From Bacteroidales bacterium (lineage in GTDB: Bacteria; Bacteroidota; Bacteroidia; Bacteroidales; F082), in the NCBI GenBank assembly GCA_024400305.1, contig JAKSMX010000007.1, positions 41,170 through 105,169 on the forward strand: a DNA stretch of 64,000 nucleotides. The letters are read 5' to 3'. How positions within the stretch are numbered: position 1 is the stretch's first letter; the number at the start of each line of letters is the position of its first letter. Below, piece by piece: positions 13,582-37,119 of this stretch. A program made the position numbers and the translations under genes. The notes beneath the pieces were generated by a model, which did no database searches, was not told the origin of the DNA, and saw nothing but the letters and a program-made list of their open reading frames with translations.

Positions 13582-15975
13582 TTAACTATCTTTCAGCGCC
13601 TCCACCGGATTGGCATTCGCCGATTTCCAACATCTTATCAAAACTATTGAAATGGTGATAACCAACACGATAGCGAGCGAAAGCGCAAAGACCCACCAAG
13701 GCATCGGAGTGCGGTAGGCGAACTTCCCGAGCCATCTGTCGATGATGACATACGAGACCGGCGCGGCAGCGACAAAACTCACCGACACGATTTTAACAAA
13801 CTGACTGCTGAAGATGCCGAGAACCTCACGGACCGTCGCACCGTTCACCCTGCGAAGCGCAATTTCCTTCCTGCGGTATTGGGTCTCAAAGAGAATCAAG
13901 CCGAAAACACCCATCAGCGAGATGACGATCGACACCAACGAGAACGTCGTGATCAACGCCGCAAACTTCCTGTCGTAATCGTATATCCGAGCAAGCTCCT
14001 CATCGAAGAAGTCGTAGTCCAGATAGCCGCGCTTCACCTCCGGCACGTATTTCACAACTTCATCTTTTATGAAATCGATGACAGCCCCGACATCGGCGTC
14101 AGGCGTTATTCTGACATAAAGATTGTCGAGCGACTTCCACGAATCCGGGCCGAAGACATAAAACGCAAACGGTTCATTATCATATTGCAACGGCTTGAAA
14201 TTGAAATCCTTGCAAAAACCGACAATCTTGGTTTCCTCATTATGGCCGACGATTCTGTCCTCCAACGTGAGACCGAATTTATTCTTCGCGACCTCATTGA
14301 AGACAAACGTTCCGAGGCTGTCGTTTTCAGCCACTTTCGAGAAATCTTCGCCTTCAACGATGTCTATTCCCATGAATTTCAGGAAATTATATGAAACAGG
14401 ATAACAGCTGAAATGGATTTCCTCATTATTGAAGTCACGCCCCCAGCCCATACGTCCGACCGAGACCATCTGTCCGCTTGCGTATGCGACATCAACAATC
14501 TGCGGGTTTTTCTTCAGTTCCGACGCGAACGCCTCCCTGTCGGAGAAATAATAGCCGATTCGTGACGGCACCACGCCGGTGAGCAACAGATCCTTGTTGA
14601 AACCCATATCGTGCCGCAGCATGTAATCGTGTTGAAGTTTTATAAACAACGAACTGATTATCAAGGCAATGGAAACAGCGAACTGTACTCCGATGAGCAT
14701 TGTGCGAAGTCTCTTCCCTGCCTTTGAGGAAACGAAGCTGCCCTTCGCGGCGACCGCCAACGGGAACGACGTGATGTAATTAGCGGGATAGATGTTAGCG
14801 ACCACAGCGAAAACCAACCCGACGGCGCAAATCGCAAGGAAAATATCGTAATTGCTTGAAAGCGATAATGTTGGCGACACGAAACCTGCTATAAACGATG
14901 TCTCAACCGAACCGATGACCGGCAGCGAAGCCACAAGCGCGATCACCACAAGACCGGCGGCCTCAAAGAGGAAACTCATCTTCATCTGGGTCTTCGTGCA
15001 TCCGTAAACACGGTAGGTGTTCACGCCACGCAGCCGCTGCGGCACCATCGCCATGAAGAAATTCACGAAGTTGATGAACGCTATCACTATGATTAACAAG
15101 GCAATGGCAACGAGCATCCGTGTTGTGGCAAGATTGCCTTTGTTGCCGCTTCCGCTCTTTTCATCAAAATAAGTCTTGGTGACAGGGATAACACGCACCT
15201 TCTTGATTTTGTCCGCATAATACTGACTTTCGTCTGAATCTGACAGGTCTTCTCCGAAATATCCGGCAAGATTCGCACGGCAAATCCCGGCCACATACTC
15301 AAGGTCGTCGGTGTTGACTTTTGCCATGCCCTGAAACGACCACTCACTCCTGTCATCAATCCAATCGTCACCAATTGAAACAACCGCATTCCACCATTTG
15401 AAATCACTGTTTTCAGGTATGTCGGGAATTATGGCGATAATGCTGTACACCATATCTTCATCCCAATTAGCTGAAAAACAGACACTTCCGCCAACATCAC
15501 GGTTTAACCGTTTAGCTGTCGATTCGGTCAGCACGACGGTTTTCGGCTCATCAAATTTGGAAAAATCGCCACGTACAGGCTCGATCCCCAATACTTTAAA
15601 GATTTCGGAACTTGCTCTTACAGTACTCATTTGGCAGGTTTCAAAGCCATCGCCAACGCGTATTATCACCCCTTTCGGGCTACAATTGAACGTGGCCAAA
15701 ACACAATGAGACTCCACAGCCGGGTTGTCGCCGAACGCCGATTCAATCATCGGCCGCGAGATAAAATCAGTGTAAGAGTCATCGGCATAAGGGCTTGGCC
15801 ATTCGAGGGTGACGATATGGTCGGCATCCTTGAAGCTTTTGTTGAAGGTCAGCTCATAGCGCACCTGCACCATGATGACGTATGCCGTTGCGAAGGCGAC
15901 CGCCATCCCGACCACGTTGAGAACCGACGACGCGGTGAAACGCTTGAGGAGACCGAGGAAGTTCTTGAAAAACAT
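13582..15975 (-). CDS. ABC exporter permease, MacB/FtsX type (permease 1)
   Basis: 797 aa. An N-terminal membrane helix (SSVLNVVGMAVAFATAYVIMV) is followed by a MacB-like periplasmic core, a three-helix FtsX domain near 285-400, a second membrane entry (MLIGVQFAVSIALIISSLFI), a second periplasmic core and a second FtsX domain at the end. It is therefore a tandem FtsX protein, as is usual for Bacteroidetes. The end, ANANPVEALKDS, matches the C-termini of permeases 2 and 3. It is the second gene of a transcript with the ATPase 84 bp upstream, driven by the sigma-54-type promoter at 16777. Probably part of a tripartite efflux complex with the TolC and adaptor encoded at 23738-26492. Substrate unknown. 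Confidence 0.85.
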   Translation of the reverse strand: MFFKNFLGLLKRFTASSVLNVVGMAVAFATAYVIMVQVRYELTFNKSFKDADHIVTLEWPSPYADDSYTDFISRPMIESAFGDNPAVESHCVLATFNCSPKGVIIRVGDGFETCQMSTVRASSEIFKVLGIEPVRGDFSKFDEPKTVVLTESTAKRLNRDVGGSVCFSANWDEDMVYSIIAIIPDIPENSDFKWWNAVVSIGDDWIDDRSEWSFQGMAKVNTDDLEYVAGICRANLAGYFGEDLSDSDESQYYADKIKKVRVIPVTKTYFDEKSGSGNKGNLATTRMLVAIALLIIVIAFINFVNFFMAMVPQRLRGVNTYRVYGCTKTQMKMSFLFEAAGLVVIALVASLPVIGSVETSFIAGFVSPTLSLSSNYDIFLAICAVGLVFAVVANIYPANYITSFPLAVAAKGSFVSSKAGKRLRTMLIGVQFAVSIALIISSLFIKLQHDYMLRHDMGFNKDLLLTGVVPSRIGYYFSDREAFASELKKNPQIVDVAYASGQMVSVGRMGWGRDFNNEEIHFSCYPVSYNFLKFMGIDIVEGEDFSKVAENDSLGTFVFNEVAKNKFGLTLEDRIVGHNEETKIVGFCKDFNFKPLQYDNEPFAFYVFGPDSWKSLDNLYVRITPDADVGAVIDFIKDEVVKYVPEVKRGYLDYDFFDEELARIYDYDRKFAALITTFSLVSIVISLMGVFGLILFETQYRRKEIALRRVNGATVREVLGIFSSQFVKIVSVSFVAAAPVSYVIIDRWLGKFAYRTPMPWWVFALSLAIVLVITISIVLIRCWKSANANPVEALKDS

Positions 15976-16059: not shown

Positions 16060-16740
16060 TTACAACTCATCGTTCACATTATCAACTATTTTGCCATCGA
16101 ACAGGTTGATGATTCTGTCGGCGTATGACGCATCTTTGCGCGAGTGTGTCACCATGACGACCGTGGTGCCGTCGTTGTGAAGTTCTGAAAGGAGTTTCAT
16201 CACTTCCTGACCGTTTCTTGAGTCGAGGTTGCCTGTCGGCTCGTCGGCGAGGATTAGTTTCGGGTTGGCGACGACGGCGCGTGCTATCGCCACACGCTGC
16301 TGCTGTCCGCCGGAGAGCTGCTGCGGAAAATGGTCGCAGCGATGCAGAATCCCCATGCGGCGCATTATCGCCTCAACCTTCTCGCGGCGTTCCGCCTTGT
16401 TGATTCTCAGATAGATAAGCGGAAGCTCGATGTTTTCATAAACGCTCAGCTCATCGATGAGGTTGAAGCTCTGAAACACGAAGCCGATGTTTCCCTTGCG
16501 GAAAAGCGTGCGGTCTTTCTCCTTCAGCTTGCCCACTTCCCTTCCGAGAAGTTCGTATTCGCCTTCCGTCGGGTTGTCAAGCAGGCCCAAGATGTTCAGC
16601 AGCGTTGACTTTCCGCAGCCGGAAGGTCCCATGATGGCTACAAATTCGCCGTCTTTGATTTCAAACGACACGCCGGCGAGGGCCGTTGTAATGATGTCTT
16701 CGGTTCTGAATTCCTTTACGAGGTTGTTTACTTTAATCAT
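16060..16740 (-). CDS. ABC exporter ATP-binding protein, MacB/LolD type
   Basis: 226 aa with all ABC motifs: Walker [10 protein letters not shown] (38-46), Q-loop in FVFQSFNL, signature [14 protein letters not shown] near 142, Walker [13 protein letters not shown], and the switch His in VVMVTHS. Length and sequence style match ATPases that drive MacB/FtsX permeases by mechanotransmission. It is the only ATPase in the 13.6-26.5 kb exporter region, while there are three permeases, so it may serve all of them. It is the first gene after the sigma-54-type promoter at 16777-16794 and its two upstream palindromes. Confidence 0.92.
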
Positions 16741-16776: not shown

Positions 16777-16794
16777 ATCATATTTCGTGCCAAA
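16777..16794 (-). promoter_or_regulatory. Sigma-54-type promoter for the ATPase-permease unit
   Basis: The minus strand reads TTTGGCACGAAATATGAT. The -24 part TTGGCACG is exact, and the -12 G is 12 bases after the first -24 G, as sigma-54 requires. The -12 box is ATGA rather than TTGC. The predicted start is near 16767, 27 bases before the ATG. Confidence 0.75.
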
Positions 16795-16844
16795 CTTATA
16801 AATTATTAACAATCAATATTTTACAAAACAAGCAAAATAAAAAC

Positions 16845-16883
16845 CGTCCAAAATTTGGACAGTAGGTGTCTAATTTTTGGACA
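16845..16883 (-). promoter_or_regulatory. Twin 17-bp palindromes, likely enhancer sites for an NtrC-type regulator
   Basis: Sites CGTCCAAAATTTGGACA (16845-16861) and TGTCTAATTTTTGGACA (16867-16883) start 22 bp apart. Their centres are about 86 and 108 bp upstream of the predicted start, a normal position for sigma-54 enhancers. The same pair, spacing and distance recur at 20442-20480 and 26587-26625. Confidence 0.75.
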
Positions 16884-16902
16884 GTCTTTATTTTGAATCT
16901 CA

Positions 16903-16955
16903 TTTGAGTTTTGGCCAAAAAGTTAATTTTTTTTCGTTTTTGGCTAAAACTCAAA
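16903..16955. repeat. 19-bp inverted repeat (possible terminator of the vapC-like locus)
   Basis: TTTGAGTTTTGGCCAAAAA (16903-16921) pairs with 16937-16955 with one G-T mismatch and a 15-base loop. It lies downstream of the broken vapC on the minus strand and upstream of the exporter enhancer sites. The T run sits in the loop rather than after the stem. With the enhancer, promoter and the repeat at 17099 it accounts for the gene-free stretch 16741-17213. Confidence 0.65.
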
Positions 16956-17098
16956 GCAAAAAACTGTCAATTTTCATCGACGGACACCTTTGACAACAAT
17001 TGGTTTATGACCTTTGGTGTTTTTCCACTCCAACAAAATATTTTCAATTTTTCGCCCAAACATATTCAGTTGTTTTTCAATATGTTATAATTTACAAA

Positions 17099-17151
17099 CA
17101 CATTTTCCACCCGAGTTTTTCGGATATTTCACACATTTTCCACCCGAGTTT
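17099..17151. repeat. Two direct copies of a 20-base sequence
   Basis: CACATTTTCCACCCGAGTTT occurs at 17099-17118 and again, identical, at 17132-17151, so the period is 33 bp. It lies between the exporter promoter region and the vapC pseudogene. No function is apparent. Confidence 0.8.
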
Positions 17152-17213
17152 CGGTTGCAAAAATACGAAAAATCATAATCCGAAACTGTTTATGAAAAAT
17201 TTTTCAACTAATT

Positions 17214-17627
17214 TCAGTTTCTCACCACCCAATTATCAATCTTTATGCCCTTAATGTTTTGAAAATGTTTTATATTATCTGTTATCAACGTCAAATCATT
17301 GGCATACGCAGTACCAGCAATCAGCAAATCTATTAAATCATTTACTTCAGTACCTGCGAGTTGCAATCTGGCTTTCTCTTTTGCTGCAAATTCTATTGAT
17401 GGCTCAACAGGTAAGATTGTCACAGAATTTTCAAAAAGTTTAAGATTTTCGTACTTGTTTACTCCTGTATTTTGAAGAGTATATTCTACTCCGACCATCA
17501 ACTCCGCAATTGTCAATAAAGAAACCGCACAATTTTCAAGTCCGACTTACTTGATTTTTTCCTTAATGCCATATTTATTGCGAAACAAGAAACCACAAAT
17601 ATTTGTGTCGAGCAGATACTTTGCCAT
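17214..17627 (-). pseudogene. VapC-type PIN-domain toxin with an in-frame stop
   Basis: From ATG 17627 the frame reads MAKYLLDTNICGFLFRN and on to KEKIK, then TAA at 17547-17549 (codon 27), then continues in frame as VGLENCAVSLLTIAELMVG to the normal PIN end. The first part holds the catalytic Asp of LLDTN; the later part has the NDLIDLLIAGTAYANDL and LITDN motifs with the other acidic residues. A truncated start at a TTG or ATG inside the frame would lack the first Asp. VapC proteins are RNases that cut tRNA or rRNA. The antitoxin gene ends 2 bp upstream. One base change (for example CAA or GAA to TAA) explains the stop. Confidence 0.85.
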
Positions 17628-17629
17628 AA

Positions 17630-17887
17630 TCAGATTTCAACTATTTCACGTTTTTTATTTCTCCCCGACTCGCAAACTTCAACAAATTCATCGGCTGTCA
17701 GCCCATCATCAGGCCATGAGGATGAGATTTTATCAAGAACATCATCACAATCTTCCGCCGTGATTTTTGGCTCTTTTCTTAACGATATATAAATCAATTC
17801 AATAAGGTTAAGTTTAACCTCATTACTTGAATTTTTTATTAAATTCCAGTATTTTTTTGCGGCTGGAATTGGCACGACGTCATTCAT
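17630..17887 (-). CDS. Antitoxin-like partner of the broken vapC
   Basis: 85 aa, acidic near the C-terminus (EDCDDVLDKISSSWPDDGL, TADEFVEVCESGRNKKREI). It sits directly upstream of the PIN-domain gene with a 2-bp gap, which is the standard order for vapBC-type pairs. The N-terminal part (VVPIPAAKKYWNLIKNSSNE) does not show a clear MazE/AbrB or ribbon-helix-helix pattern to me. The reading frame is intact. The assignment rests mostly on context. Confidence 0.6.
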   Translation of the reverse strand: MNDVVPIPAAKKYWNLIKNSSNEVKLNLIELIYISLRKEPKITAEDCDDVLDKISSSWPDDGLTADEFVEVCESGRNKKREIVEI

Positions 17888-17993
17888 ATCAAAATTTTTA
17901 TTTGCAAAAGTACACTAAATTTTTGATTCACACATGTATTCTTTAAAAAAATCACACCCGCTCTGGCACTCTCTTAACTCTCCTCTCTAATCT

Positions 17994-20336
17994 TTACTCT
18001 TTCTTCAGGCTCTCCACCGGATTCGCGTTGGCGGCCTTAAGGCTCTGCCACGAAATTGACAACGCCGCCATCAGAAACACCGCGAGACCGGCGGCGATGA
18101 AAATCAACGGCGAGACGCTGATCCTGTAACTGTAGTCTTCAAGCCAGTAATCTATTAAGAACCAAGCGATTGGGACGGCTATCACAAAAGACGCGAGGAA
18201 CATTTTCAGGAAACCGCCTGTCAGACGTCTGAACGCCTCGGCGTTGGTAGAACCGAAAACCTTGTTGACGGCAATCTCCTTTGAACGCTGCTTCGCATAA
18301 TACGTTGACATCGCCACCATTCCCAAAATCGAAATTATCAACGCTACAATGCTGAAAACCAGTATGATATTACGAATGTCCCTCAAATCTTTGTAATAAG
18401 TCTCAGCCAGATAATCATCAAGATACATGCAATCCACATCAACATTCGCCAATTCCTTAATCTTGCCTTTCACCTCCTCCATCGCCTTTGCGTGACGACC
18501 CGTCGTCTTTAAAATCAGATGCCACGGCGAGCCGGATTCTTCCCCCAACATCCTGACCAAATAAACGTCATTTTCGTTATTCTGCAAACAATTATAATCC
18601 TTGATGACGCCACAGACATTAAAACGCCAATCGTATTCCGGATCCAAGACAAGTTCGGTGGCATCGTAGTCGAGGCCGAAACGACGCATCGCCTTTTCTG
18701 TAATCCACCACGTATCCGGCAAGGGCTCGCCATTTTTCGTAATCACCTCAAAACCAAGGATTTCAAAAGATGAAGTATCGCATGTCATCCAGTTCAGTGA
18801 ATAAAGTCCGTCTTCTCTTTCAAAAGTTGAATTATTAGCATAACCGAGCGGGAAACCTTGAGAAAACCCGACCCCGATAACATCAGGGAGCTTCTCCAAC
18901 TCATCCTTGAGCATCGGCAATGATTTCTCCTCAACAGCTTGATAGACATTTGTTATATTTACCTCCATGATGTCGTGGGTTTCATGATTTAACGGTTTGT
19001 TCATCAGATGGTTAAACTGCCACGACAAAGCTATCGTCAGCGAAAGCATCGTTATCGTCACCACATTTTGAATCATGATGAAAACCTTTCCGAAAACGAG
19101 CTTCGACTTCAGCCTGAAGCTGCCTTTCACCACGTCAACAGGCTTGAATCTTGAGATCATCAGGGCGGGAATCAAGCCTGCGAGGACGCCGACAAGCAGG
19201 ACTAACGCGGAACAGACCGCGACCTCATCAGCGGTGATGTCGTGAAACACGTTCACGTTCTTTCCGAGCAGCGGCAACGTCACCGGCTCGGCGAGTCCTG
19301 CAAACAACGTTCCGAACACGAATGCGATGATTGTCAGCAATATGGCTTCCGAAATCATTCGCATTATCACACCGTGTTTTGACGTTCCGAGAAGCCGCCT
19401 CGTTGCCATTTCCTTGGCACGGAAACCGGTCTGCGCAACAGTGAGGTTGATGTAATTTATCAAGGCGAAAAGCAGGATGAAAAACGCCACCGCCATCAAA
19501 ACATTGATAAAAATCTTGTTTCCGCGATTGCAATTATTAAGGGCATAGAAATCCAAATCACTGAAATACAATTCATTGTAATTATAAATATGCAATTCTT
19601 TCCGTGCGCCGGACGCATAAATCCAATAAAACTCATTGAAATATCCGAGCATATCGGCTTCCTTTTCCTTGAAATCCGCACCGGGATAAGTCTGGATGAA
19701 AAGCGTCACACCGGCAGCATTGTCAAAACTGTCATTTTTAACAGATTCATTTATAAACTCGCCATAACACTGCAAGTTATAAATGAAGTCAACATCCGGA
19801 AAAAAAGAGTTTTCGATCTTCTCGAACACGCCGCCTACCACGACGTTTGTTGACGCCGCGCCCCATTTCACAAGGATCGACTTCCCCACCGGCGACAGTC
19901 CGTGAAACGCCCGCCTTGCGAACTCCTCCGAAATTATCACCTTGTCCTTCGTATCCAATGCCGTCTCACGGTCGCCTTCCAAAAGCCTGAAAGAGAACAT
20001 CTTAAGGAAAGTCGTATCGACAGCGAGCGACTTTGGCGAATAGTCAACATCATAGATGTTAACGACTTGAATATCAGTGTTTTTAACAGCGCAGACAATT
20101 TTTATTTCCGGATAACGGCTCGTGAGATAAGGCGTCAGGCCGTAGGCACACGCCACGAAGTCCTCGGTTCCGATCGTGTAAATGTCTTCGGTGTTTTCCT
20201 GAAATGAATCGACGGTGAACTCCAGTTTCGCGAACTTCGCGATGAGCACGATGAACATCATGGCGACCGCCAACCCTAAAATATTAATTAAGGTGTAAAG
20301 TTTGTTTCGGTAGAGAAATCTGAAATATGACAGCAT
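17994..20336 (-). CDS. ABC exporter permease, MacB/FtsX type (permease 2)
   Basis: 780 aa with the same tandem FtsX plan as permease 1: an N-terminal helix (INILGLAVAMMFIVLIAKF), a periplasmic core, membrane helices around 275-400, a second entry near VFIMIQNVVTITMLSLTIAL, a second core and the final FtsX helices, ending in ANANPVESLKKE. It forms its own transcription unit with a sigma-54-type promoter at 20374-20391 and twin enhancer palindromes. The first 72 bases of the gene and the 4 before it are identical to those of permease 3. No ATPase or adaptor is in this unit, so it probably uses the ATPase at 16060. Its stop codon lies inside an AGAGTAAAGA low-complexity repeat. Confidence 0.85.
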   Translation of the reverse strand: MLSYFRFLYRNKLYTLINILGLAVAMMFIVLIAKFAKLEFTVDSFQENTEDIYTIGTEDFVACAYGLTPYLTSRYPEIKIVCAVKNTDIQVVNIYDVDYSPKSLAVDTTFLKMFSFRLLEGDRETALDTKDKVIISEEFARRAFHGLSPVGKSILVKWGAASTNVVVGGVFEKIENSFFPDVDFIYNLQCYGEFINESVKNDSFDNAAGVTLFIQTYPGADFKEKEADMLGYFNEFYWIYASGARKELHIYNYNELYFSDLDFYALNNCNRGNKIFINVLMAVAFFILLFALINYINLTVAQTGFRAKEMATRRLLGTSKHGVIMRMISEAILLTIIAFVFGTLFAGLAEPVTLPLLGKNVNVFHDITADEVAVCSALVLLVGVLAGLIPALMISRFKPVDVVKGSFRLKSKLVFGKVFIMIQNVVTITMLSLTIALSWQFNHLMNKPLNHETHDIMEVNITNVYQAVEEKSLPMLKDELEKLPDVIGVGFSQGFPLGYANNSTFEREDGLYSLNWMTCDTSSFEILGFEVITKNGEPLPDTWWITEKAMRRFGLDYDATELVLDPEYDWRFNVCGVIKDYNCLQNNENDVYLVRMLGEESGSPWHLILKTTGRHAKAMEEVKGKIKELANVDVDCMYLDDYLAETYYKDLRDIRNIILVFSIVALIISILGMVAMSTYYAKQRSKEIAVNKVFGSTNAEAFRRLTGGFLKMFLASFVIAVPIAWFLIDYWLEDYSYRISVSPLIFIAAGLAVFLMAALSISWQSLKAANANPVESLKKE

Positions 20337-20373
20337 AATTTTTTGATTTATTTAATTCAATCGTCAAAATCCC

Positions 20374-20391
20374 ATCATATTTCGTGCCAAA
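20374..20391 (-). promoter_or_regulatory. Sigma-54-type promoter for permease 2
   Basis: The minus strand has TTTGGCACGAAATATGAT, the same 18 bases as at 16777-16794, with correct -24/-12 spacing. The predicted start is near 20364, 28 bases before the ATG. Confidence 0.75.
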
Positions 20392-20441
20392 CTTTTAAAT
20401 TATTGACAATCAAATTTTTATAAAAACAGTAAAAAATCAAA

Positions 20442-20480
20442 TGTCCAATTTTTGGACAGTGGGTGTCTAATTTTTGGACA
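20442..20480 (-). promoter_or_regulatory. Twin 17-bp enhancer palindromes for permease 2
   Basis: TGTCCAATTTTTGGACA (20442-20458) and TGTCTAATTTTTGGACA (20464-20480) are 22 bp apart, with centres about 86 and 108 bp upstream of the predicted start. The second is identical to the second site at 16867-16883. Confidence 0.75.
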
Positions 20481-20532
20481 GTTGGCACGTAAAATATTTT
20501 GTCAAAATTTAAATTATTTTACACAAAATTAT

Positions 20533-20540
20533 TACTTTTG
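20533..20540 (+). promoter_or_regulatory. Bacteroidetes -7 element before the DUF3791-like gene
   Basis: TACTTTTG fits TAnnTTTG, 21 bases before ATG 20562. It points away from permease 2. No -33 element was recognised. Confidence 0.45.
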
Positions 20541-20561
20541 CAGCCAAATCATATAAAGAAT

Positions 20562-20793
20562 ATGACTGACAAAATACATTACATAGTTGCATTGATTGCT
20601 GAATTTGCCGAACATTACGGACTTACCGACGCACAAGCTGCACGTTGCATAAGCCGTTTCGGTGCTTTGCAACTTTGTGATGAACATTATGCACACACTC
20701 ACTTTCCACGAAAACATTGAAAACATTGCAACGTATTGCAGAAGAATGGGTGGCAAGACGCTTGAAGAATTTCTGAAAACTGATCAAAATTAA
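20562..20793 (+). pseudogene. DUF3791-like small protein gene, frameshifted
   Basis: From ATG 20562 the product (MTDKIHYIVALIAEFAEHYG, then ALQLCDEHY) has the plan of DUF3791, whose members usually continue as HYxxLHT followed by a helix. Here the frame goes off at about 20689. The matching continuation, MHTLTFHENIENIATYCRRM and on to LKTDQN, is in another frame and ends with TAA at 20791-20793. A small deletion or insertion near 20689 explains this. DUF3791 genes are often found beside DUF3990 genes in Bacteroidetes, a proposed toxin-antitoxin-like pair; no DUF3990 is here. Confidence 0.65.
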
Positions 20794-20814
20794 TGGTACA
20801 TCAAAACTTTTTAG

Positions 20815-20822
20815 TACTTTTG
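20815..20822 (+). promoter_or_regulatory. Bacteroidetes -7 element for the intact toxin-antitoxin pair
   Basis: TACTTTTG fits TAnnTTTG, 16 bases before ATG 20839. The same arrangement precedes the antitoxin at 3921. Confidence 0.5.
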
Positions 20823-20838
20823 CAAAAAATTCATACCA

Positions 20839-21036
20839 ATGGCAACATATACAATTAACATTAACGAAAGGACTTCAGCAGGAAAATACTTATTAAAAAT
20901 CTTGCAAGATGCACCTTTCGTAACATTCAAACACACAGAGAAAACCGAGCTTGAAAAAGCAATTGATGAGGTCGAAGGTGGCAAGGTCTATAAGGCTGAA
21001 AGTGTTGAAAAATTAATGGACATAATAAATGGCTAA
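20839..21036 (+). CDS. Antitoxin of an intact YafQ-type pair
   Basis: 65 aa, beginning MATYTININERTSAGKYLLK and ending in an acidic segment (ELEKAIDEVEGGKVYKAESVE). It has the order and size of antitoxins that pair with YafQ/RelE toxins and shares the K-A-I-x-E-[VI]-E-x-G-K pattern with the antitoxin at 3921. Its end overlaps the toxin start by 8 bp, so translation is coupled. Antitoxins of this type bind their own promoter; the -7 element is at 20815-20822. Confidence 0.75.
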   Translation: MATYTININERTSAGKYLLKILQDAPFVTFKHTEKTELEKAIDEVEGGKVYKAESVEKLMDIING

Positions 21037-21307
21037 ATATCAAATTTACTATACCAAAAAATTCATCAGACAAGCAAAATTGTGTAAAAAGCGAGGCTAT
21101 GACATGAATTTATTGCAAAATGTCATCTCTCTTCTGTCAGAAAATGGGTGTCTTGAAGCAAAATATAATCCACACAAATTATCTGGTGACAAAGTTGGCT
21201 ACATGGAATGTCACATTAAAGCAGACTGGTTATTAATATGGAAACATATTGATAATCAACTGATTTTAACAATGACAGCTACTGGTACTCATTCCGATTT
21301 ATTTTAA
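21029..21307 (+). CDS. YafQ-family mRNA interferase toxin
   Basis: 92 aa, complete. The family features are LCKKRGYDMNLLQNVISLL, the central HKLSGDKVGYMECHIKADW and the end TATGTHSDLF with the catalytic His. YafQ toxins cut mRNA in the ribosome. The partner is the overlapping upstream antitoxin. It is a close structural match to the broken toxin at 4124 (same RGxDMN, LSG, CHI, GTHSDLF landmarks) but differs enough in sequence to be a separate lineage. It is the only toxin-antitoxin pair in the window that reads intact. Confidence 0.85.
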   Translation: MAKYQIYYTKKFIRQAKLCKKRGYDMNLLQNVISLLSENGCLEAKYNPHKLSGDKVGYMECHIKADWLLIWKHIDNQLILTMTATGTHSDLF

Positions 21308-21354
21308 ATATTTCAAAATATTACAGTAACTTTTCGCTCTTTAATCTCTCATCT

Positions 21355-23724
21355 CTACTCTTTCTTCAAACTCTCAACCGGATTCGCGTTGGCGGCCTTC
21401 CACGTCTGGAAAAAGACCGAAAGCACCGCTATCAACAGCGAGAACAGCATCGCCGCGAGGAAAATCCACGGACTCAATGAGATACGGTACGAAAAACCTT
21501 TCAGCCACTCGTTCATCACGAAATACGAAAGCGGCACGGCAAGCACGAACGACACCAACAACGGCGTACAGAACTTGCTGAGTGTCAACACAGTAACCTC
21601 TTTCACGGTGCTTCCCATGATTCTTCTGATGCCGATTTCCTTTTTCCTCTGACGAAGGAAGAAAACCGAGATGCCGAGAAGCCCGAGAACCGAAATCACC
21701 ACCGCTATCGCCGTGAAAAGCGAGACGATTTTCAACGTATTGCGCTCATTCTCAAAGTTTACACTGATGGAACTCTGAAGGTCTTCATCTTTCTCGCCCG
21801 CTTCAACATCATAACCTTTAACAACCGACATCGCTTCATAAATCTTCCGTCCCGCATCGCGCGAGCCGTCTGACTTCACTATCAAAGAAGCATGAGGCAT
21901 ATCCTCCTGTTTTTTGATGCGAATCATAACCGGTTGAGGATCAGCGAGAATGCTTCCCATGTGAAAATCAGCTACAACGCCGGCGATGGCAATCTCATCA
22001 CCAAATATCTTCAACGACCTCGCTGATTTGTCAAGATTGAGATGCCGCATCGCCGCCTCATTAAGATACGCCGAACCCCATGAAAAACCGTAGTCTTCAA
22101 GAATCGTAAAACCAATTATCTCAAAACCAACACTATCCATGTCCGCAACCTGAAGTACGATATATTTCCCATTTTCATCCTGATAGAAATAAGCCGACGA
22201 ACACCCGTTGGCAAGATCCGGCCCGATTCCGACTTTCTCGACGCAGGAAAGACTTTCAAGAGCATCACGTGCGACATCCTTGTTGTCGGAATAAACGCTG
22301 AAAACATTTTTTGTGTTTATCCCGAGCGGCGCGTTCACAAGATGATTTATCTGCAAGACTATCACCAACGAGGCGGTCAGCATCGTGATTGTTATCACGT
22401 TCTGAATGATGATGAAGAGACGGCTCATCACCATTTTCGAGTTGTATCTGAACGAGCCTTTCACCACGTCGATCGGCTTGAACTTCATTATCTGAACGCT
22501 CGGAATGACGCCTGAAATTATCCCTGTGAAAAGGATGAAGACGACACTCAGACCGATTGTATTGACATTCAAATCATTAGCGAGACATATTTTCCCCTGG
22601 AAAAGATTCATGAAATCCTCTTGCAAATTATAGGCCAGGAAGAACCCGATGAGGAAAGCCACAAGCACCATCAACGTCGATTCGGCGATGAGCGCGATGA
22701 AGACGCTACTGGCGCGGCTACCGAGAAGCCTTTTCGTCGCCATCTCACGTGCGCGGAAACCCGTGTTGGCAGTCGTGAGGTTGATGTAATTCATGATTGC
22801 GAAAACCAGAATCGCGATGACGGCCGAAAGCAGAATCCTTATGCGGTTCTTCTCGCCTTTCAACATGCCTTCGCCGTAATTCTGCGGCGCAAACATAATC
22901 TCGTTCAAAGGCGTCAGCGTCACCTCTTTTGATTCCAAGTAATTGAATGCCGCGACATTTTTTGTTTCATATTCATAGACAGACTCAAGTTTCGGGTTCA
23001 GATTTTCGCCTTCTTTCACCATCAGGAAGGAGCTGACGCCGCCATAAGGTCCGGCAGAATAACAAGTCTTATCAAATTTGAAGCCATAAATCTGCGGTTG
23101 GCGTTCGATTCGGGTGATGATTTTCGTCTCGTTCGGGAAAATCGTCCTGTCGAAATCCTCGACCACCGCCGAAACGGTGTAAACCAAGGTCGTATCGTAT
23201 GGGTCGATATAATTTTCTCCATCTATCCTCATATAACGGTCGCCTGTGATATTCAACGGCTTGCCGATCGGGTCGGCGTCTTTGAAGAAAAATTCGGCCA
23301 GCGACTCGGTGATGACGCATTTGTCGGGAGAGCTGAGCGCGGTGTTACGGTCGCCTTTCACAATCCTGAAATCGAAGAAGTCGAAGAAAGTGGAGTCGGC
23401 GAGCATGACGTTCGCGAACTGATTGATTTCATAGTATTTCCAGCCGCTTTTTATTATCCCGGAGGTCGAAAGGACGCAGCAAGTCTTCTCGATTTCGGGG
23501 TACGTCGCTCCTATTTCGCGGGTCGCGTCGGGCCATGAATAGAAATACTTTTCGCTTCCGAGAAGGAAGATGCGGTCTTTGTTCTTGTGCCACGAATCGA
23601 CGCTGAACTGACGCCATGTGTAGTCGCCGATGAGAATCACGAACATCATCGAGACCGCCAACCCTAAAATATTAATTAAGGTGTAAAGTTTGTTTCGGTA
23701 GAGAAATCTGAAATATGACAGCAT
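21355..23724 (-). CDS. ABC exporter permease, MacB/FtsX type (permease 3)
   Basis: 789 aa, tandem FtsX plan as in permeases 1 and 2, ending in ANANPVESLKKE. It is the third gene of the TolC-adaptor-permease unit, 13 bp after the adaptor stop, and so has no separate promoter. Its N-terminus (MLSYFRFLYRNKLYTLINIL) is the same as that of permease 2, and the DNA is identical for 76 bp there. The stop codon is again within an AGAGTAGAGATGAGAG low-complexity sequence. With the TolC and adaptor proteins it should form a tripartite pump powered by a MacB-like ATPase encoded elsewhere, most likely at 16060. Confidence 0.85.
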   Translation of the reverse strand: MLSYFRFLYRNKLYTLINILGLAVSMMFVILIGDYTWRQFSVDSWHKNKDRIFLLGSEKYFYSWPDATREIGATYPEIEKTCCVLSTSGIIKSGWKYYEINQFANVMLADSTFFDFFDFRIVKGDRNTALSSPDKCVITESLAEFFFKDADPIGKPLNITGDRYMRIDGENYIDPYDTTLVYTVSAVVEDFDRTIFPNETKIITRIERQPQIYGFKFDKTCYSAGPYGGVSSFLMVKEGENLNPKLESVYEYETKNVAAFNYLESKEVTLTPLNEIMFAPQNYGEGMLKGEKNRIRILLSAVIAILVFAIMNYINLTTANTGFRAREMATKRLLGSRASSVFIALIAESTLMVLVAFLIGFFLAYNLQEDFMNLFQGKICLANDLNVNTIGLSVVFILFTGIISGVIPSVQIMKFKPIDVVKGSFRYNSKMVMSRLFIIIQNVITITMLTASLVIVLQINHLVNAPLGINTKNVFSVYSDNKDVARDALESLSCVEKVGIGPDLANGCSSAYFYQDENGKYIVLQVADMDSVGFEIIGFTILEDYGFSWGSAYLNEAAMRHLNLDKSARSLKIFGDEIAIAGVVADFHMGSILADPQPVMIRIKKQEDMPHASLIVKSDGSRDAGRKIYEAMSVVKGYDVEAGEKDEDLQSSISVNFENERNTLKIVSLFTAIAVVISVLGLLGISVFFLRQRKKEIGIRRIMGSTVKEVTVLTLSKFCTPLLVSFVLAVPLSYFVMNEWLKGFSYRISLSPWIFLAAMLFSLLIAVLSVFFQTWKAANANPVESLKKE

Positions 23725-23737
23725 AATTCAACATTTT

Positions 23738-24994
23738 TTAATTATTCAGAATCAAAACATCAGCATCGCCGAACTTGTCGTAGCCGCTTGTGACGACTTG
23801 TTCGCCGGGATTCAGGCCTTGCGTCACCTCGTAGTAGTTCGGGTTCTGGCGGCCGATTTTTATGTCGCGTTTGTAGGCCTTGTCGCCATCGACGACGAAG
23901 ATCCAGTTGCCGCCGGTTTTTTGGTAGAACGCGCCGCGCGGGATGAGAACCGAGCTGACCGCCTGTCCGAGCTGGAGGTTGAGATAATATGTCTGTCCGG
24001 CGCGTATGTTGTCGGGACGCTCGCCGGTGAGTTTGAAGTCGGCCTTGAAACGACCGTCACGCACCTCGGGATAGACCTTGCGCAACGAGGCGGTGAACTG
24101 CTCGCCATTGCGGTCGAAGGTGGCTTCGAGGCCAGCCGTCACGCGGTCGATGTAATGCTCATCTATCTGAGCCTCAATCTTATAGCTCGACAAATCGTTA
24201 ATCTGTCCGATTTTCATTCCGGAGGAGATGTTCTGTCCGAGCACGGCGTCGAGCAGTCCGAGTTCGCCGTCAATCGGGGCTTTGACCGTGAGGTTGTCCT
24301 TGCGCTGACGGATCATCAGCATGTTGCGGCGCATGTTTTCGAGACTCTCCTGCATCCTTTCCACCTCGACGGAACGATAAAGGCTGTCCTGTTTCTGGCG
24401 GTTGACGATGAGTTTCAGCTTGTCGCACGCCAGCTCGTAGTTTTCCTTTGCCTGAAGGAACGTCTCGCGTGAAATCAGCGAGTCGCGGTAAAGAGCCTCG
24501 TTCTGCTCGAAGGCGCGTCGCTGACGGCGGACATCGAGATTGTATTGCAGACGCTCCTGTTCGACGCTCAGTTTCTGTTGCTCCATGGAAATCAAAGTGT
24601 TACGAAGGATATTTTCTTTCTCGGCGAGTTCCGCCTCCGAATTCAAGATCTGCAGGTCAAGGTTCGGATTACTTAAAATTATTATTACATCGCCTTTTTT
24701 CACTGGGCTGCCTTCTTCTGTCACGATTTGTTCTACAACGCCGCCTTCGAGCGGGCTGATCTGCACAGTGCTAACGGGTTGCACCTGTCCGTTGACGCGG
24801 ATGTAATCGTTGAACTCGCCTTGTTTCACGGTACTTACCGTGATGGTTCGGGCATCGATGCGCAGCGACGAAGTGTTGTCACGCAACACGAGCCACAGCA
24901 CGAAAGCCACAAACGCCGCGAGAAACACGAATTTGATGTTCTTCTTCTGAAAAACGGCCGCAAAGCCTGTCTTCTTTTCAATTTTTCTATCCAT
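23738..24994 (-). CDS. Periplasmic adaptor (HlyD/MacA-type membrane fusion protein)
   Basis: 418 aa. One N-terminal membrane helix (FVFLAAFVAFVLWLVL) is followed by a barrel-sandwich (lipoyl) half with VNGQVQPVSTVQISPLEGG, a long coiled-coil hairpin at about 110-215 (QILNSEAELAEKENILRN ... SLENMRRNMLMIRQRKDN), the second lipoyl half (VKAPIDGELGLL) and beta-barrel and membrane-proximal domains. The family joins an inner-membrane ABC or RND pump to TolC. It is the middle gene of the TolC-adaptor-permease unit. The 150 bp before it hold the REP-like element at 25028-25143. Confidence 0.88.
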   Translation of the reverse strand: MDRKIEKKTGFAAVFQKKNIKFVFLAAFVAFVLWLVLRDNTSSLRIDARTITVSTVKQGEFNDYIRVNGQVQPVSTVQISPLEGGVVEQIVTEEGSPVKKGDVIIILSNPNLDLQILNSEAELAEKENILRNTLISMEQQKLSVEQERLQYNLDVRRQRRAFEQNEALYRDSLISRETFLQAKENYELACDKLKLIVNRQKQDSLYRSVEVERMQESLENMRRNMLMIRQRKDNLTVKAPIDGELGLLDAVLGQNISSGMKIGQINDLSSYKIEAQIDEHYIDRVTAGLEATFDRNGEQFTASLRKVYPEVRDGRFKADFKLTGERPDNIRAGQTYYLNLQLGQAVSSVLIPRGAFYQKTGGNWIFVVDGDKAYKRDIKIGRQNPNYYEVTQGLNPGEQVVTSGYDKFGDADVLILNN

Positions 24995-25027
24995 AGTTTA
25001 AATTTTTGTTTCTTTAAATTATTGAGT

Positions 25028-25143
25028 TTGCTCGACTTCGCTCGCAATGACAAAGTGTTTTGGGTATAACTTGGCGCGGCGAAGCCGCGCCGTCTCATTC
25101 CCCAAACTGCCGTCATTGCGAGCGACCGAAGGGAGTCGAGCAA
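25028..25143. repeat. REP-like inverted-repeat element between TolC and adaptor genes
   Basis: TTGCTCGACTTCGCTCGCAA (start 25028) pairs with a right arm at 25112-25143 that begins GTCATTGCGAGCG and ends AGTCGAGCAA. At the centre is the GC-rich palindrome GGCGCGGCGAAGCCGCGCC (25073-25091). Elements with CATTGCGAGCGA...GTCGAGCAA arms are widespread dispersed repeats in bacteria. Here it fills the gap inside an operon, so the transcript will contain a stable stem, which may lower or process expression of the downstream genes. Confidence 0.8.
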
Positions 25144-25145
25144 CC

Positions 25146-26492
25146 TCATTCTAAATACCTGACACCTTTATAATAATTCACGACTTTCGATTTTATGACG
25201 AAAGTGAAATACGCATGAAGCCGCGCCGCCTCCGATTCAAGGCGGTTGTTGCCCGATGCCTGAAGTTCGAGGACGGAGATGAGACCCTGCTCGTAGCGTT
25301 TCTGATTCAGTTTATACGCAACAGCCTGACTGTCAGCGCGTTTGTCGGCCTGAACGAAAGCCTTCAAAGCCGCGTCCCTGTCCTGAACGGCGAGTTCTAT
25401 TTCAACTTCGAGGTCCTTCGTTTTCTGTTCAAACTCATATTGTGCGATTTTCCAGTTGTTTTTCCTGATTCTCATATTCGTCTGTCGCGACAACCCATTG
25501 AAAATCGGGATGTTGAGATTCAGCTGGACGTATTCGCCTTGGCGGTCGGTCATCTGTTGCCAGAACGGGTCGGCATTGTAACCTTCCATGAAAGAATTGA
25601 TGTAACCCGTTGAATATCCGGCGTATGCGTAAAGCGACGGGGTCATCTGCCATTTCGAGGTCTTGAACCTCAGACGCGCCGCCTCGATATTGTTTTTCGC
25701 AATCATCATCGAAGGATGGTTCTCTTTCGCGAAAGCGTAAATATCCTCAACATTTTCAGCATTTGAACCTTCAATCAATTGAATATCAACGCTGTCATCA
25801 ACCATCAGCTCATCGCCCATCGGGAAATACATCTTCTGTTTCAGCACCGACAAGGCGTTGGCGCAGCTGTTCTGCATCATCACGAGATTATAATCTTTTT
25901 CAGCGACGAGAGCCTCTATCTCGGCGACATCGGCATAACTCTTAAGTCCTTGTTTCTCTTGGCTTTGCGTAAATTTCAGATTTTGATTCGCCTCATCGAG
26001 CTGCTGCTGCGCCAGCACGCTCATCTGCGAGTAGTAAATGACGTTGTAATAAGCCTGAATCACTTCAAGGCAAAGCTCATCTTCTATCTGCTGCTGTTCG
26101 GCGACACCTAACTCCTTGGCGTTCTTTGCGATACGGAAGTTATTCACCACGCTGAACCCGTCGAAGACCGTCCAGCCCGCCGAAAGCGAGTAGCTGTTGT
26201 TGAAAGTTGTATAATTTGAATATACATTCGTCTCCGGGTCGATGGAGCGACCGAAATTCGCCGATGCGCCGACACCGCCGCTCACCGACGGGAGGAAGCC
26301 CATGCCCGCAGCGAGTTTTTCATCTTTAAGTATCTGATTCTGTGCGGCTTTAATCTTGGTTCTCGGAGCGTTCTCCATTGCATAACGCATACAATCATTT
26401 AAAGAGAAAACCGAAGTTGTCTGGGCTTGAGACGTGCAGCAACACATCTCTGTAACAGCCAAAACAGCAATTATTGCAAAAAATCTCTTCAT
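25146..26492 (-). CDS. TolC-family outer membrane efflux protein
   Basis: 448 aa with a signal peptide (MKRFFAIIAVLAVTEMCCC, cut near SQAQ) and two OEP repeats rich in long helices: LNDCMRYAMENAPRTKIKAA at the start of the first, AYYNVIYYSQMSVLAQQQLD, and the second repeat from DIYAFAKENHPSM to LNLNIPIFNGLSRQTN. TolC-family trimers form the exit duct of tripartite pumps. It is the first gene of the exporter unit controlled from 26517-26534, with the adaptor and permease 3 downstream. Confidence 0.9.
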   Translation of the reverse strand: MKRFFAIIAVLAVTEMCCCTSQAQTTSVFSLNDCMRYAMENAPRTKIKAAQNQILKDEKLAAGMGFLPSVSGGVGASANFGRSIDPETNVYSNYTTFNNSYSLSAGWTVFDGFSVVNNFRIAKNAKELGVAEQQQIEDELCLEVIQAYYNVIYYSQMSVLAQQQLDEANQNLKFTQSQEKQGLKSYADVAEIEALVAEKDYNLVMMQNSCANALSVLKQKMYFPMGDELMVDDSVDIQLIEGSNAENVEDIYAFAKENHPSMMIAKNNIEAARLRFKTSKWQMTPSLYAYAGYSTGYINSFMEGYNADPFWQQMTDRQGEYVQLNLNIPIFNGLSRQTNMRIRKNNWKIAQYEFEQKTKDLEVEIELAVQDRDAALKAFVQADKRADSQAVAYKLNQKRYEQGLISVLELQASGNNRLESEAARLHAYFTFVIKSKVVNYYKGVRYLE

Positions 26493-26516
26493 TTTTCAAA
26501 AATTTGCGATATCGCT

Positions 26517-26534
26517 ATCAATCATCGTGCCAAA
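26517..26534 (-). promoter_or_regulatory. Sigma-54-type promoter for the TolC-adaptor-permease unit
   Basis: The minus strand reads TTTGGCACGATGATTGAT. The -24 TTGGCACG is exact and the -12 box is TTGA with its G at the correct distance. The predicted start is near 26507, 15 bases before the ATG. Confidence 0.78.
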
Positions 26535-26586
26535 GTATTTAAACCGATGATTGTCAAGTTTTTAAATAAAAACAAAATTCCGAGAG

Positions 26587-26625
26587 TGTCAAAAAATTGG
26601 ACAGCGGGTGTCAAGAAATTGGACA
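26587..26625 (-). promoter_or_regulatory. Twin 17-bp enhancer palindromes for the TolC unit
   Basis: TGTCAAAAAATTGGACA (26587-26603) and TGTCAAGAAATTGGACA (26609-26625) are 22 bp apart, with centres about 88 and 110 bp upstream of the predicted start. The left halves differ from the other two loci, while TTGGACA and the spacing are kept. Confidence 0.75.
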
Positions 26626-31821: not shown

Positions 31822-32847
31822 ATGAGAAAATTGAAAATTGAGAAAACAAAAGATAGTTCTTCTGTAGAACGTTATTTGCAGGAATTAGAGAAAGCATCCA
31901 AGATGGGGGAAAAAGGATTCAGGTTTTTGATGTATGAACACTTGAAACGTGTGTTTCAGACTGGTGATTCCAATTATGTTTCAGACAAGCAAAAGCTGAT
32001 GTATCCAAAAATAGTGGAAGCCATTGAAAATCACAGGAAAACCCGAAAGTTTGAGTATCATCGCTTTTTCGAGGCCGGACATGTGGCCAGTTCGCAGGCC
32101 GCCTGTTTCAACTTGTTTTTGCCTATCATGATTTCAGACCACGCAGCTGAAGTCCTTGCATGTGTCAAACCTGACATGAAAAAGATTGACGATTCTCGCC
32201 TGGACCATGGATTTTGCTTTGAGTACTGGAGAGAGGAACCGCTTTATGCCGAAAGTTCCGACAAGGGATTGCTTAATGATCATTCAAAGATATATGGAAC
32301 GGATGCGGATTTTGCTGTCAGTTATATTGATGAGGATGGGGAAAAATGTCTCTGGCTTATCGAGCATAAACTTACTGAAACAGAGTTCACCCGCTGCAAT
32401 GTCTATCATAATTCAAAGCATTCGGAGGAGCGTGCCGTCTGTGACGGACTGACATTTTCAGAGCTGATAAATGAACCCGATAAATGTTATTACACTTGGA
32501 AAAGGCATTTCGCATATTGGAGTCACACCACCAATGAACTGTTCCCCAATATCAATGCCGACAAGAAAGGATGTCCGTTTAAAGATGGTATGTGTCAGCT
32601 GTGGCGCAATGTCCTTCTTGCTGAAGAGGCACGGAAAGCGTATGGTTATGACAAGGTGTTCTTCTCTGTGGCCAAGCCGGAAGGCAATACTCTCCTCAAT
32701 GACTCCATTGACAGGTTTTCAGAGATTGTGAAGCCTGATGTGTTTTCTGTTTTTAATCCAAGAGAATTGTTTCGCGCCGCCAATGCTTTCGACGACGAGC
32801 TGCTTCATGACTGGCGCAAGTGGTATGCCAAGGTCTATTTGATATGA
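31822..32847 (+). CDS. Putative PD-(D/E)XK restriction-type nuclease (PGN_0703-like)
   Basis: 341 aa. The likely catalytic core is GTDADFAVSYIDED ... CLWLIEHKLTE (about 154-181), in which the Asp and the E-x-K fit PD-(D/E)XK nucleases. The sequence also has four Cys and several His residues near CPFKDGMCQ. It resembles the PGN_0703 group of putative restriction endonucleases of Bacteroidetes. No methyltransferase is adjacent, so it is not a classic restriction-modification pair. It is more AT-rich than the dehydrogenase upstream, consistent with separate acquisition. The assignment is by recall of motifs and is moderate. Confidence 0.6.
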   Translation: MRKLKIEKTKDSSSVERYLQELEKASKMGEKGFRFLMYEHLKRVFQTGDSNYVSDKQKLMYPKIVEAIENHRKTRKFEYHRFFEAGHVASSQAACFNLFLPIMISDHAAEVLACVKPDMKKIDDSRLDHGFCFEYWREEPLYAESSDKGLLNDHSKIYGTDADFAVSYIDEDGEKCLWLIEHKLTETEFTRCNVYHNSKHSEERAVCDGLTFSELINEPDKCYYTWKRHFAYWSHTTNELFPNINADKKGCPFKDGMCQLWRNVLLAEEARKAYGYDKVFFSVAKPEGNTLLNDSIDRFSEIVKPDVFSVFNPRELFRAANAFDDELLHDWRKWYAKVYLI

Positions 32848-32881
32848 CATAAAACAAACCAACCACGTTTTTTTCTATCGG

Positions 32882-32948: not shown

Positions 32949-32956
32949 GCAATAGT

Positions 32957-34337: not shown

Positions 34338-35714
34338 ATGAACCACAGCATCCTCATCGTTGACGACAACCGCGGCATCCTCTCCGCACTGAAACTGACT
34401 TTAGGTCACGACTTCAAGAATATAACCACGCTTTCATCACCGAAGACGCTCATCAGCGAACTGTCTGAAAACCAATACGATGTGGTGCTTTTGGACATGA
34501 ACTTCACCGAAGACACAAACACCGGCAACGAAGGGCTTTTCTGGCTCTCGGAGATAAAAAAAAGTTTCGACACCGAAGTCGTACTTTTCACCGCCTACGC
34601 CGACATCGAGCTCGCCGTCACCGGGATAAAACGCGGCGCATACGACTTCATCGTGAAGCCGTGGGACAACGGGAAACTCATCAAGACGCTTGTCGATGCG
34701 GCGAACCTGACAACAAAAAAACGTGACAAAAACGCGGAGACGCTCCGCAGCGCATCTCAACGTCAGAATGAAAACGAATCCGGGAACGTGATGTTCTGGG
34801 GCGAATCAGCCGCCATGCAGTCACTGCGCCGCCTCGTGGAGAAAGCCGCCCCGAGCGACGCAAGCGTCCTCATCACAGGCGAGAACGGCACCGGCAAAGA
34901 CCTGCTCGCCAAAGAGATACACAACCTTTCACCAAGAAAATCAATGTCTTTCGTCGCCGTTGACATGGGTTCGATGCCGGAGACGCTGTTCGAGAGCGAA
35001 CTGTTCGGACACGTCAGAGGAGCCTTCACCGACGCCAAGAGCGACCGCGCCGGAAAGTTCGAAGCCGCCAATAAAGGCACACTTTTCTTCGACGAAATCG
35101 GGAACATCCCGCTGCATCTCCAGGCCAAGCTGCTCCGCGTACTGCAAAACCGCACCATCACTCGCATCGGCGACAACAAAGTGATTCCTGTCGACATACG
35201 CCTCGTCTGCGCCACAAACATGGACATCGAGAAAATGGTGAAAGACGGCACCTTCCGCGAAGACTTATACTACAGAATCAACACGATAAAGATACAGCTG
35301 CCCACATTGAGGCAACGCCGCGAAGACATCATCCCGTTGGCAGAAATGTTCATCCAACATTTTGCAAATCAATATAATAAGACCTTAAACGGCATCAGCG
35401 ACGAGGCGAAGGAGACGCTCGTCAACTGCAAATGGGGAGGCAACATCCGCGAGCTGCAGAACTGCGTCGAGAAAGCCGTGGTGCTATGCGAAAGCAAAAC
35501 GTTGCAAAAGTCCGACTTCCAACTGAATTACCTCGAACTATGGGAGCCTGAAGAACCGGCAAAAGCCGAAGAGGACGCCACGCTCGACGAAATAGAGAAA
35601 AACGCCATCCTCAACGTGATGAGAAAATACGACGGCAACCTCACACTCGTCGCCAGACACCTGAATATCAGCCGGCAGACCCTTTACAACAAACTAAACA
35701 AATACGGCCTCTGA
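34338..35714 (+). CDS. Sigma-54-dependent NtrC-family response regulator
   Basis: 458 aa from ATG 34338 (MNHSILIVDDNRG). The receiver domain has Asp9-Asp10, the phosphoacceptor Asp53 and Lys107. The AAA+ domain has Walker A GENGTGKD (181-188), GAFTDA (228-233) in place of the sigma-54-contact GAFTGA, and Walker B TLFFDEIG (248-255). The C-terminus is a Fis-type helix-turn-helix (LVARHLNISRQTLYNKLNKY). The family is activated by phosphorylation, assembles on enhancers about 100 bp upstream and opens sigma-54 promoters. Its stop overlaps the kinase ATG by one base. I infer that it acts on the three exporter promoters at 16777, 20374 and 26517, whose sites have the right form. Confidence 0.92.
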   Translation: MNHSILIVDDNRGILSALKLTLGHDFKNITTLSSPKTLISELSENQYDVVLLDMNFTEDTNTGNEGLFWLSEIKKSFDTEVVLFTAYADIELAVTGIKRGAYDFIVKPWDNGKLIKTLVDAANLTTKKRDKNAETLRSASQRQNENESGNVMFWGESAAMQSLRRLVEKAAPSDASVLITGENGTGKDLLAKEIHNLSPRKSMSFVAVDMGSMPETLFESELFGHVRGAFTDAKSDRAGKFEAANKGTLFFDEIGNIPLHLQAKLLRVLQNRTITRIGDNKVIPVDIRLVCATNMDIEKMVKDGTFREDLYYRINTIKIQLPTLRQRREDIIPLAEMFIQHFANQYNKTLNGISDEAKETLVNCKWGGNIRELQNCVEKAVVLCESKTLQKSDFQLNYLELWEPEEPAKAEEDATLDEIEKNAILNVMRKYDGNLTLVARHLNISRQTLYNKLNKYGL

Positions 35715-37100: not shown

Positions 37101-37119
37101 CCGGAAATTTCAGAGAGAT

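Follow-up and report, generated by a model that had tools for sequence, protein, structure and literature searches.

Twin palindromic sites at sigma-54-type promoters mark a candidate exporter regulon in Bacteroidales

Exporter genes, promoters and regulator of the window

Three exporter transcription units and a two-component system of the NtrC type lie on contig JAKSMX010000007.1 of a Bacteroidales bacterium (family F082, GenBank assembly GCA_024400305.1), within the 64,000-nucleotide stretch analyzed here and referred to as the window. Open reading frames and domain models place the exporter genes on the minus strand, with unit 1 (16740-13582) encoding an ATP-binding cassette (ABC) ATPase and permease 1, unit 2 (20336-17994) permease 2 alone, and unit 3 (26492-21355) a TolC-type channel, a periplasmic adaptor and permease 3. 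Each unit is preceded by the same plan, a sigma-54-type promoter with two tandem palindromes farther upstream (Table 1). The regulon is conserved across relatives, and its sites are linked there to homologues of the window regulator. These sequence patterns make it highly probable that a dedicated two-component system would run the dispersed exporter regulon through the twin candidate sites.

The palindromes are 17 bp long and read TGTC-N9-GACA, with a spacer of nine in all six sites and a centre-to-centre distance of 22 bp within each pair. On the plus strand, five are perfect matches to the site pattern given in a preliminary description of the window, and the sixth, at 16845, differs by one base. 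The same description had proposed this common plan of two 17-bp sites 22 bp apart and a -24 element with a -12 G at exact spacing, and all of its elements were recovered at the three units. The spacing of about two helical turns likewise agrees with the tandem dimer sites that it predicted on one face of the DNA. A scan for the whole plan, defined as paired sites with no more than one mismatch over 16 fixed bases and TGGCAC 44-70 bp farther on, returned three occurrences in the window versus none in 100 dinucleotide shuffles. With one mismatch allowed, the twin pattern is found only at these three places in the organism's whole genome (76 contigs, 2.86 Mb), and a reversed-pattern control gave none. 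Promoter letters by themselves were set aside as evidence. The octamer TTGGCACG occurs seven times in the window, four of them beyond the three promoters, versus a shuffle mean of 3.06, and three of 100 shuffles reach seven; TGGCAC with a -12 element occurs 31 times in the genome versus 40 in the control, counting both strands, which is no excess.

The window regulator combines receiver, sigma-54 AAA+ and Fis-type helix-turn-helix (HTH) domains and is accompanied by a cognate kinase gene, as in NtrC-type two-component systems, and these domains bear out the sigma-54 response regulator and kinase that had been proposed at 34338-37006. Its sigma-54-contact loop (GAFTGA) reads GAFTDA. As in an NtrC-type regulon, -24/-12 promoters in the window are matched by rpoN in the genome, where it is a single gene, with the -12 GA being weaker than GC. 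The genome encodes three full sigma-54 activators, namely the window regulator and two others designated C5 and C25. At the start of the kinase, only a few residues separate two hydrophobic segments, and this very short-loop form is typical of intramembrane-sensing kinases such as BceS.

Table 1. Promoters, candidate sites and genes of the proposed regulon, in window coordinates
Feature	Position	Strand	Details
Sigma-54-type promoter, unit 1	16778..16793	-	TTGGCACG 16786-16793, -12 G at 16779
Sigma-54-type promoter, permease 2	20375..20390	-	TTGGCACG 20383-20390, -12 G at 20376
Sigma-54-type promoter, unit 3	26518..26533	-	TTGGCACG 26526-26533, -12 G at 26519
Twin palindromes upstream of unit 1	16845..16883	-	16867-16883 and 16845-16861
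Twin palindromes upstream of permease 2	20442..20480	-	20464-20480 and 20442-20458
Twin palindromes upstream of unit 3	26587..26625	-	26609-26625 and 26587-26603
IHF (integration host factor)-like element TAAAATATTGATT, unit 1	16811..16823	-	31 bp before T of TGG; by eye
IHF-like element TAAAAATTTGATT, permease 2	20408..20420	-	31 bp before T of TGG; by eye
IHF-like element TAAAAACTTGACA, unit 3	26552..26564	-	one base off YAANNNNTTGATW; 32 bp before T of TGG; by eye
ABC ATPase	16060..16740	-	best NCBIfam model DarD, 280.8 bits, cut-off 375
FtsX/MacB-type permease 1	13582..15975	-	ADOP-like duplicated, under cut-off
FtsX/MacB-type permease 2	17994..20336	-	ADOP-like duplicated, under cut-off
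FtsX/MacB-type permease 3	21355..23724	-	ADOP-like duplicated, under cut-off
HlyD/MacA-type periplasmic adaptor	23738..24994	-	general RND adaptor model passed; DarC model under cut-off
TolC-type outer-membrane channel (OEP)	25146..26492	-	domain models
NtrC-type response regulator	34338..35714	+	receiver, sigma-54 AAA+ domain, Fis-type HTH, recognition helix SRQTLYNK
Histidine kinase	35714..37006	+	two hydrophobic segments, very short loop, PAS, HisKA, HATPase

The three permeases (780-797 amino acids) have no ATPase domain, and the ATPase is encoded separately by a single gene, so that one ATPase would have to serve three permeases. The adaptor and TolC-type channel are encoded together with permease 3, as in a MacAB-TolC pump. 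MacB itself is defined by fusion of its ATPase to the permease, and the separate ATPase led us to reject MacAB in the strict sense. A MacB periplasmic-domain model has eight matches in the genome; the frames near 790 amino acids are these three genes, and the remaining matches fall in frames of 428-463 amino acids. The darobactin exporter DarBCD and the ADOP duplicated permeases provide the nearest specific NCBIfam models of the ATPase, adaptor and permeases. In contrast to members of those families, the window proteins all score under the model cut-offs (DarC 203.2 against 450 and DarB at most 80.6 against 700, with DarD as in Table 1), and identity as a DarBCD exporter was rejected. Close matches, 92-99.6% identical to the exporter proteins, are titled Candidatus Limimorpha caballi or Bacteroidales bacterium.

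Other neighbors include a 1919-amino-acid protein (5592-11351) that has InlB-like B-repeats and weakly matches a type IX secretion tail. The regulator genes are flanked by genes for a PD-(D/E)XK nuclease, an archaeal-type ATPase and a Fic-domain protein (31822-34087 and 37078-38421), the nuclease and archaeal-type ATPase lying between exporters and regulator.

Recurrence and geometry of the layout

Site pairs near a -24 element recur in many relatives. Our scan of genome contigs for twin sites with TGGCAC at 40-70 bp gave at least 123 matches in at least 119 stretches; 84 of the 123 matches listed belong to Bacteroidota, including Bacteroides, Parabacteroides, Phocaeicola, Prevotella, Rikenella and Alistipes. 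An exporter-like open reading frame starting -100 to +450 bp from TGG is next in 69 of these 84, encoding a permease (28), channel (27), ATPase (10) or adaptor (4). Of the 39 matches listed outside Bacteroidota, two of them lacking a phylum assignment, 38 are not followed by an exporter gene, and the sole exporter case, titled Ruminococcus flavefaciens, may be a mislabelled Bacteroidota bin. Within the window's family, the twin TGTC pattern was found in 13 of 173 genomes versus two of 173 for the reversed control; by eye, 11 of the 13 are promoters and two (G083 and G166) look like chance.

Two further observations concern the non-Bacteroidota matches. In alpha- and betaproteobacteria, twin TGTC-N9-GACA sites with TGGCAC stand in GC-rich sequence before a secreted-looking repeat protein of ~230-300 amino acids (L053, L066, L072, L081, L091, L094, L097, L101, L109, L111, L124, L125, L129 and similar loci), the one scanned example of which gave no Pfam match. 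A sigma-54 activator similar to that of the window, mostly 34-38% identical, is present in 25 of the 39 listed loci.

Geometry was evaluated over 98 loci, the window among them, most chosen around the regulator and four for their boxes; close relatives were counted separately, so that the counts do not represent independent events. They contain 78 second boxes with a -24-like element. With first boxes allowed at any spacing of 17-40, we obtained 57 box pairs, spaced by 22 bp in 35, 23 in 11, 21 in nine and 19 in two, versus 3.7 pairs over all 24 spacings in shuffles, and an exact 22-bp spacing was dropped as a rule after these other spacings had been seen. From the end of the second box to TGG there are 52-55 bp in 47 pairs and 64-65 bp in ten. 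Among the 84 listed Bacteroidota matches, for which the scan left this distance free between 40 and 70 bp, it is 51-55 bp in 78, 63-66 in five and 43 in one. We discounted the 63-66 gap at the listed named loci L082, L116, L152 and L171, which have a TGG (a near-TGG in L152) 11 bp earlier; by eye, the longer gap there looks like a second TGGCAC over -12. L132 has no earlier TGG by eye. In other genera of the same family as the window, the 64-65 gap is probably genuine, because at one promoter read by eye (L210) a TGAT element keeps its usual distance. Two divergent promoters of genome G299, at distances of 53 and 65 bp, seem to share a single box pair (L308, L312, L338). A general palindrome scan of 37 further loci returned four hits, of which only the two of L362 looked credible; looser inspection then gave box pairs in many of those loci.

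Between box and promoter, the 83 unique listed Bacteroidota promoters contain 42 occurrences of TGAT positioned at -24/-23 before TGG. The IHF-type sequence YAANNNNTTGATW is present in 17 of the 83, compared with a shuffle mean of 0.65, and lies at -31/-32 in 15 of 18 occurrences. Three IHF-type patterns were counted in 17, 7 and 12 of these promoters versus shuffle means of 0.65, 0.23 and 0.09, and 342 other upstream stretches gave none, in a control that is less AT-rich (49% versus 70%).

Linkage to the regulator and site dialects

Co-occurrence connects the site pairs to the window regulator. In the family, the regulator is present in 10 of the 11 genomes with promoter-like twin sites, the exception being an 83%-complete genome. 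In an order-wide sample of 148 genomes, a relaxed twin pattern with GGCA was found in nine versus one for the reversed control; regulator homologues (E <= 1e-105) occur in 80 of the 148, including all nine with the pattern (about 0.003 by hand arithmetic that ignores relatedness). Pattern and homologue share a contig in 9/9, within 1.4 kb in six. This neighborhood supports the dedicated system of the preliminary description, whose MacAB-TolC-like pump stands only with the qualification, given above, that the ATPase is separate. Homologues in the family often adjoin exporters, and several follow co-oriented ATPase or permease genes. An exporter-like gene is found in 88 of all 102 regulator loci read, or in 83 of 96 when eleven short loci taken for their boxes are left out, by a loose test that covers up to 20 kb per locus (64 kb in the case of the window), accepts every ABC ATPase similar in sequence and includes a second, more distant regulator type. 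Overall, we regard the predicted assignment of this regulator to the sites as strong, by inference.

The second regulator type (44-45% identical, helix TRASLYRR; L214, L216, L217) also lies beside exporters in the family. By eye, it has apparent tandem sites of its own, TGTACGN4TGTACA-like and ~22 bp apart.

Relatives keep the geometry and change the letters of the sites, to TGTA-N9-TACA or hybrids. The exact letters and the 22-bp spacing of the preliminary description thus apply to the window's own lineage and to matches selected by the pattern, whereas relatives depart from them in sequence and, with spacings of 21, 23 and twice 19, in distance. Pairs of TGTA-N9-TACA in the same layout occur in 12 of 21 genus loci whose regulator helix reads SRP, and hybrid boxes in two other genus loci. 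Across 17 genus genomes, the nine of the TGTC type have SRQ or TRQ in the helix of the window regulator, against SRP in the six TGTA genomes then known; the helices of the other two full activators, SERTLYRK and DRKTLYNKM, are constant in all 17. In the regulator tree, a single clade (99/98) unites the TGTA genomes with two that were unassigned at that stage, and the data behind this tree reject the grouping by species (p 0.001). Kinases of the TGTA lineages are shorter, about 290 amino acids. For a count of helix against letters we used 47 loci, dropping three without a readable helix, not counting loci without a regulator and including one genome twice: loci with Pro are TGTA-only in 11/11, and those with Gln are TGTC-only in seven, mixed in 16 and TGTA-only in 13. 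We therefore dropped Gln/Pro as a code for TGTC/TGTA, since Gln occurs with all site types and the comparison comprises two independent pairs. A helix that changes with the dialect is suggestive, not proof.

Several findings weigh against a dedicated regulator-exporter system. The regulator lies ~7.7 kb from the exporters with unrelated genes between, the window scan finds no twin site before its own gene, and all three window promoters have A in place of the usual C after the -12 G. No box pair was found within the stretch read at nine of the 21 SRP loci. With only two changes of the residue, the association of helix and letters falls short of significance when the tree is taken into account. 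A proxy species tree built from the other two activators splits the TGTA genomes without rejecting them as a single clade (p 0.148), and the conflict between trees was set aside as not decisive. An exporter-like gene is missing from 13 of the 96 regulator loci, of which four carry a regulator of the second type, and an exporter gene is not next in 15 of the 84 listed Bacteroidota matches. Among those 15, one stretch (L099) ends too soon, and five scanned proteins comprise three DUF2807 and two carboxypeptidase-regulatory-like proteins, one of the latter under cut-off. Such proteins stand behind twin-site promoters in Rikenellaceae, Alistipes, Lentimicrobiaceae and Prevotella (L061, L076, L106; L070, L093), and the regulon may therefore be wider than exporters.

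Other explanations of the same layout were weighed. C5 or C25 might read the twin sites, with the window regulator nearby by accident; both are encoded in the same genome, and the C5 type is present in all 22 genomes searched. Yet their recognition helices are unchanged between TGTC and TGTA genomes, the C25 type was not found at the threshold in the five searched genomes of other genera, which keep twin boxes, and pattern and window-regulator homologue are on one contig in every one of nine genomes. We consider this account very improbable. We also consider it improbable that the palindromes are sites of a repressor or another dimeric regulator overlapping sigma-54 control rather than enhancers. 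Palindromes of this kind suit many dimeric regulators, but the near-fixed distance to -24 and the two-turn tandem spacing fit an activator, and several genomes carry the sites between the regulator and a divergently transcribed exporter gene. Finally, units 1 and 2 are similar in upstream sequence, as they would be if the exporter cluster were duplicated DNA and the promoter likeness came from recent copying without selection. The chance of this is negligible, for boxes, spacing and -24 survive across many families in which the intervening DNA and even the box letters differ.

Proposed mechanism and related systems

In the dedicated two-component system that we favor, the kinase would phosphorylate the NtrC-type regulator, whose dimers would bind the two palindromes two helical turns apart, centred at about -109 and -87, and then oligomerize. 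The AAA+ ring would contact sigma-54 RNA polymerase at the -24/-12 element and open the promoter by ATP hydrolysis, and the DNA that separates sites from promoter is probably bent at the TTGAT element by a protein of the IHF or HU kind. As output, a single ABC ATPase, the three long permeases, the adaptor and the TolC channel would be expressed in a coordinated manner and would form tripartite exporters with common parts. We infer binding, phosphorylation, bending, start sites and assembly of the parts. The mechanism fits an ordinary NtrC-type system; unusual are the tight, widely kept geometry and the largely single output. As guesses, the signal or cargo might be envelope stress or a toxic peptide-like compound, and the kinase might, by analogy, sense through the exporter.

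That analogy is with BceRS-BceAB of Firmicutes, whose kinase has two membrane segments with hardly any loop outside and is encoded near FtsX-type transporters. The window kinase has this form and FtsX-type transporters nearby; the BceRS regulator is OmpR-type, whereas that of the window is NtrC-type.

Among the published enhancers that we found, the closest, judged from the parts of the source consulted, is that of GlrR (QseF) of enterobacteria, TGTC(N)10GACA (PMC4987338). GlrR too is an NtrC-type regulator with sigma-54 promoters and TGTC/GACA half-sites; the window differs in its spacer of nine rather than ten and in having pairs two turns apart at a near-fixed distance, and the targets listed there are small RNAs rather than exporters. 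GlrR identity was rejected, as the NCBIfam model scores 299.9 bits against a cut-off of 763 and the window sites do not have the TGTC(N)10GACA spacing. PrsR is the best NCBIfam match of the window regulator, although at 405.3 bits against a cut-off of 502.6 identity was again rejected, and PrsK-PrsR is described, in the sections consulted, as governing sigma-54-dependent PEP-CTERM genes (PMC9850573) rather than exporters.

A literature search, with many subscription papers outside it, gave no publication on this regulator, its sites or their geometry, in keeping with the preliminary description, which knew of no published account of the site. The sigma-54 link of FtsX-type permeases is, in contrast, already known as a statistical enrichment. 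The consulted parts of Carrera-Reyna et al. 2025 (PMC12316311) report sigma-54 promoters enriched at COG0577/FtsX-like permeases in Bacteroidia and claim the first evidence tying sigma-54 to this family. The same permease class stands under predicted sigma-54 promoters here; that study presents -24/-12 promoter statistics and, in those parts, names no enhancer site or regulator for these genes. In a Flavobacterium study, again as consulted in part, sigma-54 promoters map to protein quality control, envelope and motility functions.

A broader reading seems unlikely. It posits an order-wide envelope-defence regulon with a bend made by an IHF-like protein, letters drifting with the helix and an unusually rigid enhancer, in which two dimer sites separated by two turns stand at either of two helical phases, 52-55 bp from the promoter or one turn more at 64-65 bp. 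The exporters may themselves be the sensor, because the window kinase is almost without an outside sensor, in a Bce-like but sigma-54-wired arrangement.

For Bacteroidales, our literature search gave little on sigma-54 activators or the sites that they use. In the present case, sequence data suffice to read regulator, sites and targets in many families, cultured gut species among them, and the layout makes this exporter class experimentally tractable. Its dialects, box spacings and promoter distances form a natural series for tests of bacterial enhancer rigidity.

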